Assembly (NCBI GenBank): GCA_017550965.1
Contig: JAFZNK010000300.1
Span: 1 to 64,000 of the forward strand
Source: Thermoguttaceae bacterium
GTDB taxonomy: Bacteria > Planctomycetota > Planctomycetia > Pirellulales > Thermoguttaceae
Reading direction: 5' to 3'
Length of the DNA stretch: 64,000 bases
In this document: positions 9,248 through 59,593 of the stretch, one piece after another
Numbering within the stretch: position 1 is the stretch's first letter
Layout of the letters: each line of letters starts with the position of its first letter
Notes under the pieces: model-generated
Told to the model about the DNA's origin: nothing
The model's input: the letters and a program-made list of their open reading frames with translations, nothing else
The model's database searches: none
Made by a program: the position numbers and the translations under genes

Positions 9248-9302
9248 AAAAAGGGCGATGTTCCAACTTTCTCAATGAGAATTTGGAACATCGCCCTTTT
9301 TT
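9248..9302. terminator. Bidirectional terminator between convergent genes
   Basis: A long stem (AAGGGCGATGTTCCAA with TTGGAACATCGCCCTT) has a T-run on the 3' side of both strands. It can serve the Pmp-like gene and the hydrolase gene that ends at 9330 on the minus strand. Confidence 0.9.
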
Positions 9303-56216: not shown

Positions 56217-56571
56217 AAAAAGTCTCGAAAAATTACGATTATTAACGATTTCGTTCTTTCCAAATCCGACGTTTTACGGTATCCTTCCAGCGGAACCATC
56301 CAGAGTATACAGGACCGACGACAAGGTTTCAACAGCCCTATCACGGCGACGTCCAAAACCCGTCGATTCCTTATATTTCAAAATAGGCAAAAAATAACAA
56401 TTATTCCATTTTTACTAATTATACAACTTTCGATTGTCGATAAGAGAAGTAGCTAGAAAACGGACGCTTGCGAAGCGCTACGTTTAGAGTCGAACGTAAG
56501 CCGTTTTCAACCGTCGGAAAATCCGACGTTATAAAATAACAATGCTTCTCCACTTGTTGTTAGAGGTCAAA
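56217..56571. other. Divergent intergenic region holding a structured leader
   Basis: 355 nt, AT-rich on the left. A possible -10 TATACA lies at about 56421. The right part holds the three-way-junction element (56457-56509) and a further hairpin (56513-56529), listed separately. No protein gene is supported. Confidence 0.45.
56457..56529 (+). ncRNA. Putative structured leader RNA: three-way junction plus hairpin
   Basis: P1 GAAAACGG (56457-56464) pairs with CCGTTTTC (56502-56509). Inside it P2 CGCTT/AAGCG (56466-56470, 56474-56478; 3-nt loop) and P3 TACGTT/AACGTA (56480-56485, 56494-56499; 8-nt loop) are joined by 1, 1 and 2 nt. Four nt later P4 CGTCGGA/TCCGACG (56513-56519, 56523-56529) closes a 3-nt loop. 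It lies 43 nt upstream of the Cys-rich gene's ATG. The pairing is read directly; a regulatory role is inference and no known riboswitch class is recognised. Confidence 0.45.
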
Positions 56572-57486
56572 ATGAAGAATAATTGGAAAAACGTCTCCGT
56601 CTTTACGGCGACCCTAATCATGGCGTTTGGCGTTACAAACGCCTTTGCTCAATATGGTTCTGGAGCTTGCGCGCCGACCTGCGAGGTTCCGACGGCCTCC
56701 TATGCGCCCAGTTGCGACGTTCCCACGTGCGACGTTCCCACGTGCGACGTTCCTGGTTGCGACGTCGGTTGCGGCCCATCGACTTGTTATGGATCCGGAT
56801 GCTATGGCGACGGCTGTTATGGCGAAAACGGCTGTTTCAGTCTTTACGGGCTTGTAAACGGCGCTTTGAACGTCGCCGTTTCGCCGTTTCGATGGATTTA
56901 CTGCGAATTTACCGACGGCATATTTCCGGACTGCGGATGCGCCCCCCGTCCTCCGAAAGCCCCTTGTAATCCGTGCACTATCTGCGGAGACTATGTAGGC
57001 GGCTGCAACGACAATTGCGAAGGTTACCCCGCGGGTAATTACTGCTGTCAGGACGCGGGCGGATATGCCAATACCTATCCGTCAGGCGTTTATTCGTCGG
57101 CAGTTTACGACGTCGAGCAATACGACGCTTCGCCGACTCGAGGCGGTCAGGCGTTGCCGACCCTTCCAATCAACAGAGGCGGACGCAACGACTTCTCCAT
57201 GAAGAGTCGTAATTTTAACGTTTCCAACATGTTCGGGCCCGCTCCTAGAATTTCAAACGTTCGCTCGGTAAGCTACGAACAACAAAACGCGAACTCCGTT
57301 CCAGCGCAAGTTTCGCAAAGAGTCGTCGTTTCGCAAGTTCAACCTCCTGTGAGAACCGACGTTCAAAAAATTCAAAGCGCCCGAGAATTACAAAACAAAC
57401 AAAACGTTCGCATCGTTGCTGAAACTGCAGAATTAGGCCGCGCGGCCAATTCAAAAACGTTCGGAACTACGCGAACTGTTCAATGA
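56572..57486 (+). CDS. Cysteine-rich secreted protein
   Basis: 304 aa from the ATG at 56572. A signal peptide (SVFTATLIMAFGVTNAFAQ) is followed by a Cys-rich half with 21 cysteines, then about 140 residues without any. It opens with a CDVPT pentapeptide repeat (about residues 47-65; CDVPTCDVPTCDVPGCDVG) coded by near-identical 15-nt units at 56713-56772, then CYGSGCYGDGCYGENGC. A conserved-looking block LVNGALNVAVSPFRWIYCEF and FPDCGCAPRPP follows. Similar Cys-rich exported proteins are typical of planctomycetes and may be disulfide-linked in the wall or surface layer (inference). Its leader carries the structured RNA element, which suggests regulated expression. Confidence 0.75.
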   Translation: MKNNWKNVSVFTATLIMAFGVTNAFAQYGSGACAPTCEVPTASYAPSCDVPTCDVPTCDVPGCDVGCGPSTCYGSGCYGDGCYGENGCFSLYGLVNGALNVAVSPFRWIYCEFTDGIFPDCGCAPRPPKAPCNPCTICGDYVGGCNDNCEGYPAGNYCCQDAGGYANTYPSGVYSSAVYDVEQYDASPTRGGQALPTLPINRGGRNDFSMKSRNFNVSNMFGPAPRISNVRSVSYEQQNANSVPAQVSQRVVVSQVQPPVRTDVQKIQSARELQNKQNVRIVAETAELGRAANSKTFGTTRTVQ

Positions 57487-57535: not shown

Positions 57536-57598
57536 AGCCCGTCGACGCTGAGTCGACGGGCTAAAGTCGTGAAAACGACGTCTTTTCTTCAGACGTCG
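57536..57598 (+). terminator. Two hairpins after the Cys-rich gene
   Basis: An 11-bp stem AGCCCGTCGAC/GTCGACGGGCT (57536-57562, 5-nt loop) and an 8-bp stem CGACGTCT/AGACGTCG (57576-57598). Neither has a good T-run, so they may be a processing site or a weak terminator. Confidence 0.5.
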
Positions 57599-57676: not shown

Positions 57677-59593
57677 ATGCAACTGGTACAACGTTTCACC
57701 ATTGGTTCGTCATATGTCAAACGAATTATGTTGGCTCTCGGTTTTCTAGCCGCTTGTCCAACGCTTTTCGCGCAACAACAATACAAACCTGAACAAATAC
57801 TAAGCCGAGTCCCGACTCAGGCGGACGTCGACGTCGACACGCCTACTGAAGAAGAAACGCCTGACTGTAAAGTTAAAAGTTTCAAGGAAGGCGCTTATCA
57901 GGGCGTAGCTTTATACAAACCGGACGGCGTGACGCCGTTGCGCGCGTGGTGCGCTCCAACGCCGACGAAACAAGGAGAAAAAGCCAGCGTCGAACAAATT
58001 CGTTTTTATAAGAACGGTCAGGAAGTCTTTCGCGACGTTCTTGGTAAAGAAGCGCGCTGGCTCAATACCGCCGGTTCTCGTCGCGGGACGCTTGCCGCCG
58101 ATAAAACGATCGCCGCATGGACGGTTCTCTCGCCGGAAGAAGCTACTCAGGAAATCGTCGCCGCAATTGTGAACAACGATTATGCGCGATTCCAACGCGT
58201 CGCTCTTTCAGAAGAGGATATGAAAACGCTCGGATTAACAGGCTCTTTAGCGGCGGAAGTCCAAAAAGAGATTCAGTCGGCAAACGCGGCTAATTTCGCG
58301 ACTCTCGTAAAAACGTTAAAAACGCCCGCCGACGCTCACTGGGGAGCTTTTAATACGTCGCTTCCGGCGACTATTCCCGCTGGGAACGGCTCCGCCAACG
58401 ATTTGACGCTCTACTACAACGCGGCGATTGTCGTCCTGAAGGGGGACGACGCTTCCCAAAATCAACAGCTTTACGTCGGCGACCTCATTAAAGTCGGCAA
58501 TGTTTGGAAGATTCTCGGATTGCCTGCCGGCGAAGCTTTCGGTCAAGCGACCGGAACCGTTTCGGCCTCGTCGATATTCTTCCCCGCCGTCGGCGGCGCA
58601 AGCGCAGGAGCGGAAACAACCGCAGACGTCGGCGAATTTGGGACTCAATTGAACGAAGCGTTCGAAAAACTCGACGCCGCGTCCCCGGAAGAATATGCGG
58701 GTGTTTGCGACCAAACCGTCGAACTTCTTCTTAACATCGCCGAAAACAACCCGTCCGAACGAGAAAATATGCTCTCTCAAGCGGTCAACGTTATTTTTAG
58801 CGGCGTTCAATCCGGACTCTATCCGCAAGGAGCGCAAAAACTTGCCGCACTCGAGGAAGCGTGCGGAGACGATGTGAGCGAGAATGTCAAAGCGCTCGTC
58901 AAACATCGCCTGATTGTCGCGGAATTTTACGCGGTCGCGCAAGCGCAACCGCAGCCGAAACAATCGGTTCTTCAGAAAGCCCAGGAAAAGTACGCCGACG
59001 ACCTTACCGCTTTTGTTGACGAATACTCGACGACTCCCGCAGGAGCGGAGGCCGCGATGAGTCTGGCGCTAGACCAGGAATACGTCCTCGAAAACGACGC
59101 GGCTATTGAATACTATCAAAAAGTCGCTCAAAACTTCGGCGACGCTCCCATTGGACAAAAAGCGACGGGCGCTATCGCGAGACTTCAATCTGAGGGGGGC
59201 AAGTTAAACTTTCCCGCGATGAAGTATTTCGGCGGCGGCGTTTGCGACGTCGCGGCTTTAACAGGCAAGCCGACGGTTATTTTCTGTTGGGCCAGCTGGG
59301 ATCAAGAGAGCGTAGACGCCGTGAAAAAAATCGCGTCGCTGGTCAACGTGGTTGGCGTCAACCTTGACTCCGCTCCTACTGCGGAAGCGGCAAACGATTA
59401 CTTCAAGCAAATCTTTGCCGGTATTCCCTGGAAAAACGTTTGCGATCCTGCCGGTCTCGAAGGCGCGCCAGCTACTGCGCTTGGCGTTCAAACCGCTCCT
59501 TGGGCGATTCTTATCGACAAGTCGGGCAAAGTCGTTCGATCAAATATCGTCGACATGAACGAACTTGTCGATATCATTAAAGAACTCAAATAA
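57677..59593 (+). CDS. Exported protein with C-terminal thioredoxin-like fold lacking CxxC
   Basis: 638 aa. A signal peptide (IMLALGFLAACPTLFAQ) precedes a large N-terminal region: a beta domain (about 45-130), a part with AAWTVLSPEEATQEIVAAIV and YNAAIVVLKGDDASQNQQLY, and a helical, TPR-like stretch (about 320-500). Residues about 510-636 look like a TlpA/AhpC-type thioredoxin domain: LTGKPTVIFCWASWDQES, where the usual W-C-x-x-C is WDQES, then VVGVNLDSAP, and APWAILIDKSGKVVRSN (the position of the cis-Pro TxPx loop). Without CxxC it cannot be a classic disulfide reductase. The ATG at 57677 has AAGGAG upstream, inside a small hairpin. Role unknown. Confidence 0.75.
   Translation: MQLVQRFTIGSSYVKRIMLALGFLAACPTLFAQQQYKPEQILSRVPTQADVDVDTPTEEETPDCKVKSFKEGAYQGVALYKPDGVTPLRAWCAPTPTKQGEKASVEQIRFYKNGQEVFRDVLGKEARWLNTAGSRRGTLAADKTIAAWTVLSPEEATQEIVAAIVNNDYARFQRVALSEEDMKTLGLTGSLAAEVQKEIQSANAANFATLVKTLKTPADAHWGAFNTSLPATIPAGNGSANDLTLYYNAAIVVLKGDDASQNQQLYVGDLIKVGNVWKILGLPAGEAFGQATGTVSASSIFFPAVGGASAGAETTADVGEFGTQLNEAFEKLDAASPEEYAGVCDQTVELLLNIAENNPSERENMLSQAVNVIFSGVQSGLYPQGAQKLAALEEACGDDVSENVKALVKHRLIVAEFYAVAQAQPQPKQSVLQKAQEKYADDLTAFVDEYSTTPAGAEAAMSLALDQEYVLENDAAIEYYQKVAQNFGDAPIGQKATGAIARLQSEGGKLNFPAMKYFGGGVCDVAALTGKPTVIFCWASWDQESVDAVKKIASLVNVVGVNLDSAPTAEAANDYFKQIFAGIPWKNVCDPAGLEGAPATALGVQTAPWAILIDKSGKVVRSNIVDMNELVDIIKELK

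Follow-up and report, generated by a model that had tools for sequence, protein, structure and literature searches.

A candidate 5'-terminal stem-loop behind a putative sigma28-type promoter in the leader of a Cys-rich protein gene of a Thermoguttaceae bacterium

The Cys-rich protein gene and its surroundings

The window, that is, the whole stretch of 64,000 nucleotides (64 kb) that was analysed, carries a gene for a protein of 304 aa with 21 Cys residues, the N-terminus of which resembles a signal peptide by eye, and for which no Pfam or NCBIfam family was matched. The start codon was taken as the ATG at 56572, and a conserved ACTTGT box is found just 5' of the GAGGT of the Shine-Dalgarno region in several lineages. 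The following features were assigned to the gene and its leader:

56416..56443, + strand: putative sigma28-type promoter, comprising a -35 element TAATTATA (56416-56423), a 12-nt spacer and a -10 element GTCGATAA (56436-56443), with a T-run before it; kept in 19 congeneric orthologs and 4 distant homologs
56450..56452, + strand: putative initiator T-A-G, with the start at about A56451, from the Y-A-R conservation in the leaders
56456..56508, + strand: predicted 5'-terminal stem-loop, P1 (8 bp) around P2 and P3 in a three-way junction; P1 kept in the related loci L003 and L004, P2 and P3 not
56512..56528, + strand: second hairpin, 7 bp; two compensatory changes against L004, a shorter form in L003
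56563..56566, + strand: Shine-Dalgarno GAGG, from the sequence; GAGGT precedes the ATG in nearly all the orthologs
56572..57486, + strand: secreted Cys-rich protein; start set by the orthologs and the Shine-Dalgarno
57536..57562, + strand: hairpin after the gene, probable terminator, from the sequence and the fold score

Orthologs of the gene were found in 19 of the 20 genomes of the genus (this genome counted), which belongs to the Thermoguttaceae, along with weak homologs of the protein in two other genera and further distant homologs at the loci L078 and L079; the named records with Cys-rich homologs are Thermoguttaceae and other planctomycete MAGs, many of them from rumen or gut. The leaders of the 19 congeneric orthologs and of 4 distant homologs were compared, and the leader length among the orthologs ranges from 87 to about 190 nt.

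Several other features of the surroundings may be mentioned. The hairpin at 57536-57562 is perfect (AGCCCGTCGAC...GTCGACGGGCT) and lies directly 3' of the Cys-rich gene, and the next gene (57677-59593) encodes a thioredoxin-like domain protein; at the distant locus L079, too, a counterpart of this gene comes directly after the one for the Cys-rich protein. Shortly 5' of the promoter block, at 56380-56391, lies a AAAATAGGCAAA box, a possible activator site, and similar boxes recur upstream of many orthologs (e.g., L004-L007, L009, L011 and L014). The strongest fold in the window is a very strong inverted repeat at 9248-9302 (AAAAAGGGCGATGTTCCAA ... TTGGAACATCGCCCTTTTT, z about -11), which resembles a bidirectional terminator. 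Elsewhere in the same genome (L057:12422-14755, on G000:C170), a 777-aa protein with an N-terminus that is MlaD/Mce-like by eye carries a CDVP/CEAP Cys-repeat tail resembling the Cys-rich protein; the neighbours of its gene are ABC transporter and permease genes, and a FliA/WhiG sigma gene lies about 4 kb away.

The predicted fold and its fate in the relatives

Both the sequence and the folding gave P1 as 56456-56463/56501-56508 (8 bp) and P2 as 56465-56469/56473-56477 (5 bp, with a 3-nt loop); P3 (56479-56485/56492-56498) consists of 6 Watson-Crick pairs and a closing U-G, the joints of the three-way junction are 1, 1 and 2 nt, and the second hairpin (56512-56518/56522-56528), with 7 bp and a 3-nt loop, follows 3 nt after P1. 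The stems of the earlier note, which had described a structured leader of the Cys-rich gene, were recovered in the sequence and in the fold, with the corrections that P1 begins at 56456 rather than 56457 and that the last gap is of 3 rather than 4 nt. The element exists in a single copy in its own genome, as found by a DNA-similarity search of the whole genome.

The fold of 56457-56529 goes beyond chance only modestly (z = -2.1, in the best ~6% of same-size windows, the background being 5,116 such windows on both strands of the 64-kb window, with a mean z of -0.23). A longer stretch of 141 nt reaches z = -3.4 because of an outer stem, 56444-56451/56543-56550, which was rejected as a part of the RNA: with its 5' arm situated before or at the putative transcript start, it is probably absent from the transcript.

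In the two closest relatives, L003 and L004 (63-65% protein identity), P1 is retained with 8/8 and 7/8 pairs, respectively, and in L003 two G-C pairs have become A-U. The second hairpin also persists, with U-A to C-G and A-U to G-C replacements in L004 and in the shorter form in L003; these compensatory pairs were read partly from a hand alignment of three sequences. The arms P2 and P3 are swapped in both relatives for one longer single arm, and the other 16 congeneric orthologs carry unrelated hairpins. The covariation across the three sequences is thin, not firm (the observed score is equalled or exceeded in 72 of 500 shuffles), although only 37-65% of the cells are paired once the partner columns are slid, against 87% before. 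A covariance model (R1) built on these three leaders found no further copy in 29 sources or 20 genomes, matching only its three source sequences, as would not be expected of a conserved cis-acting RNA class. Since the junction is missing from the relatives and the model finds no others, the three-way junction is a local form. Thus, of the covariation and conservation by which the earlier note proposed to judge the element, the first is represented, thinly, by the compensatory changes that L003 and L004 show in P1 and the second hairpin, the second fails for the junction, and a class of compact three-way-junction RNAs is not supported.

The putative promoter and the transcript start

Upstream of the gene, conservation is strongest not in the RNA but in a block whose end lies about 130 nt from the ATG; it was found in 19 congeneric and 4 distant loci as TTTTTACTAATTATA-N12-GTCGATAA here and ATTTTTCTGAATTTT-N12-GACGATAA in another genus. 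The block TAATTATA-N12-GTCGATAA reads as a putative sigma28 (FliA/WhiG)-type promoter, the consensus of which is TAAAGTTT-n11-GCCGATAA (PMC2859248): TAAA-N15/16-GCCGATAA-like -35 and -10 elements occur with near-constant spacing in all the orthologs and are followed by a YAR initiator. The sigma28 (FliA/WhiG/SigD) promoters are matched in the TRAW core of the -35 element, in the -10 NNCGATAA and in the near-identical spacing; the differences are a spacer of 12-13 rather than 11 and the T-run before the -35 element. Recognition of the block by a FliA/WhiG sigma factor is what we infer from these likenesses.

After the -10 element, Y stands at +7 in 22 of 22 leaders, A at +8 in 18 of 22, and a purine at +9 in 22 of 22, and on this Y-A-R conservation the transcript start was therefore placed at about A56451, five bases before P1, which would give a 5' UTR of ~121 nt. 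For comparison, the start of E. coli aer was reported 6 bp after the -10 octamer (PMC2859248); a literature search for mapped transcript starts in planctomycetes found none. The putative start lies upstream of P1, and not downstream of the element as in the case that would have counted against the earlier note, and the element would thus be transcribed.

Genes for FliA/WhiG sigma factors scoring over the NCBIfam cut-off are present in 20 of the 20 congeneric genomes, with two in most of them (here G000:C170:8196-8864 and G000:C53:26589-27248). Flagellin was not found in the genus, nor were flagellar rod proteins in the five genomes checked, but there is an FlhA/SctV-like export gate, which scores below the FlhA cut-off; in contrast to the known sigma28 systems, the regulon in a genus without flagellin is thus not the classical flagellar one. 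The pattern TTTNNTRAWN{16,17}KNCGATA gave 123 matches in the 20 genomes against 21 in the reversed control, an enrichment that is an upper bound for other genes, with ~18 of the matches belonging to the Cys-rich gene and some, near RNase P genes, being sigma70-like by judgement. The strict pattern occurs in its own genome at this site only, and a looser pattern is at the control level in one genome and informative only across the 20. The sigma28-type promoters appear to serve genes other than flagellar ones in this genus. Other loci behind the same pattern are L093, L094, L097, L101, L112-L114, L034, L082, L115-L117, L127 and L128, with genes for a lipoprotein (SGCAGALMMPYYLIYGTDAP), a coiled-coil protein (MSSQLQDAPQTEPLE), a capsule-export-like lipoprotein and an unknown secreted protein, and several of the other genes with this pattern have a hairpin at the inferred start.

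Stem-loops near the 5' end and their possible role

The fold z-scores of 50-nt windows in 22 leaders, with the composition controlled by dinucleotide shuffles, dip to a mean of -1.6 at the offsets +10 and +20, counted from the -10 element; between -80 and -10 they stay near zero, as they mostly do from +30 on. At +10, the lineage mean z is -1.41 with a standard error of 0.46. When the 60 nt that begin at the putative start are scored, each of the 10 lineages has a negative mean (about -1.8 on average, compared with the -0.23 of the window background; t-test p 8e-5; Fisher 2.6e-5), the offsets and the start rule having been chosen after looking at the sequences. Counted from that start, 0-10 nt precede the first helix in 18 of 22 orthologs, and 5 nt here; a stem-loop, unrelated in sequence, recurs in 10 lineages at a distance of about 0-18 nt from the putative 5' end. 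Examples are GGGGCG-loop-CGCCCC, 6 nt in, in L009; AGCCCU-loop-GGGGCU, 1 nt in, in L008; GAGCAG-loop-CUGCUC near the inferred start in L022; and a stem enclosing a second stem at the same place in L078 and L079. There is almost no fold signal in L014, and the leader of L021 is very short and forms no hairpin. For five further gene groups behind this type of promoter, the mean z is -1.1 at offset 0 and mostly near 0 elsewhere, the coiled-coil protein and the lipoprotein being clear and two moderate; the capsule-export-like gene has no fold signal at offset 0, and two of the five groups are weak or absent. Only the presence and the position of a stem-loop near the putative 5' end are kept, not a core sequence; the peak of structure holds its place although the sequence turns over, as in the stem-loops of the ompA/papA type.

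The best reading of the element, to which we give about an even chance, is a 5'-terminal stem-loop of the ~121-nt 5' UTR that would hinder 5'-end-dependent decay. The ompA and papA mRNAs are known to be stabilised by 5'-terminal stem-loops, since RppH and RNase E depend on a 5' end that is single-stranded (PMC3997798; PMC7509114). By analogy, the sigma28-type promoter at 56416-56443 would start an mRNA at about A56451, as judged from the conservation, the RNA would begin with 5'-AGCUA followed by P1, and its triphosphate end would have only ~5 unpaired bases, so that the stem-loop and the hairpin behind it may hinder the access of a pyrophosphohydrolase and a 5'-end-sensing nuclease. This would give a long-lived mRNA for the secreted Cys-rich protein, with the ribosome-binding site staying open. 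Both the folding in the cell and the protective function are what we infer here. As in the E. coli ompA/papA stem-loop (Emory, Bouvet and Belasco 1992; Bricker and Belasco 1999; cited via PMC3997798), the element would stand a few bases from the 5' end, in a long leader, away from the ribosome-binding site and with no conserved sequence; it differs in its planctomycete host, in the three-way junction of its stem in this species and in its putative sigma28-type promoter.

It is unlikely that the structure is incidental, with hairpins arising and being lost without selection in a GC-containing, fast-evolving leader, as might be thought from the position of the element fold alone only in the best 6%, the species-specific junction and the little that is seen in L014 and L021. 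However, under dinucleotide shuffling the signal is position-specific, with its peak directly behind the putative start in lineages that are independent and no signal in the flanks, and the compensatory changes in P1 and the second hairpin also speak against it. Quite unlikely, too, is a translation leader, with the hairpins as spacers or insulators by which the Shine-Dalgarno is kept open and the translation rate constant: the Shine-Dalgarno is weakly paired in the predicted fold, with no strong sequestration, and the ACTTGT box just upstream of GAGGT in several lineages would suit such a role, but the position of the stem-loop is fixed to the transcript start and not to the ATG, across leaders of so variable a length.

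It is very unlikely that the leader is an undescribed cis-regulatory RNA that binds a ligand or a protein through the core of its three-way junction, along the lines of the earlier note. The leader does share with riboswitches and ribosomal-protein leaders a compact multi-stem form upstream of a gene, here with 1-2-nt joints, and no known Rfam class matches it, in agreement with that note: at the gathering score, Rfam gave only two tRNAs in the 64-kb window, and at relaxed thresholds the best sub-threshold match on this strand was 17.4 bits against a cut-off of 50. However, in a small riboswitch or a leader that binds a protein the core sequence should be retained, and such a class is not supported here: the junction is missing from all the orthologs, including the two closest, no loop or joint sequence is conserved, no expression platform is seen, and there is neither a + strand terminator nor a strongly sequestered ribosome-binding site. 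An attenuator was rejected, with no + strand terminator-like site in the leader. Most improbable is that the inverted repeats work at the DNA level, as operators for a regulator at the start, for, immediately downstream of the promoter as they are, and with a conserved palindrome TTAACAACGTTAA there in the L015-L020 lineage, they differ by lineage in arm sequence, arm length and loop length, unlike the operators of one regulator.

The 5'-terminal stem-loop may tentatively be extended to a class, although we regard this as doubtful: the transcripts from sigma28-type promoters in these flagellin-less gut planctomycetes would be selected to begin with a stem-loop of free sequence, a 5' hairpin 'cap' shared by the whole regulon of one alternative sigma factor. 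The kind of element is already known, and what is possibly new is the pairing, in different genes of a flagellin-less genus, of a 5' hairpin with one class of promoter. A tidy junction in one genome need not mean a new RNA class; the one-off fold is turned instead into a testable rule, that of stem-loops at the start of the transcripts from sigma28-type promoters in planctomycetes, and a candidate promoter motif with several target genes is provided for the FliA/WhiG sigma factors in bacteria without flagellins.
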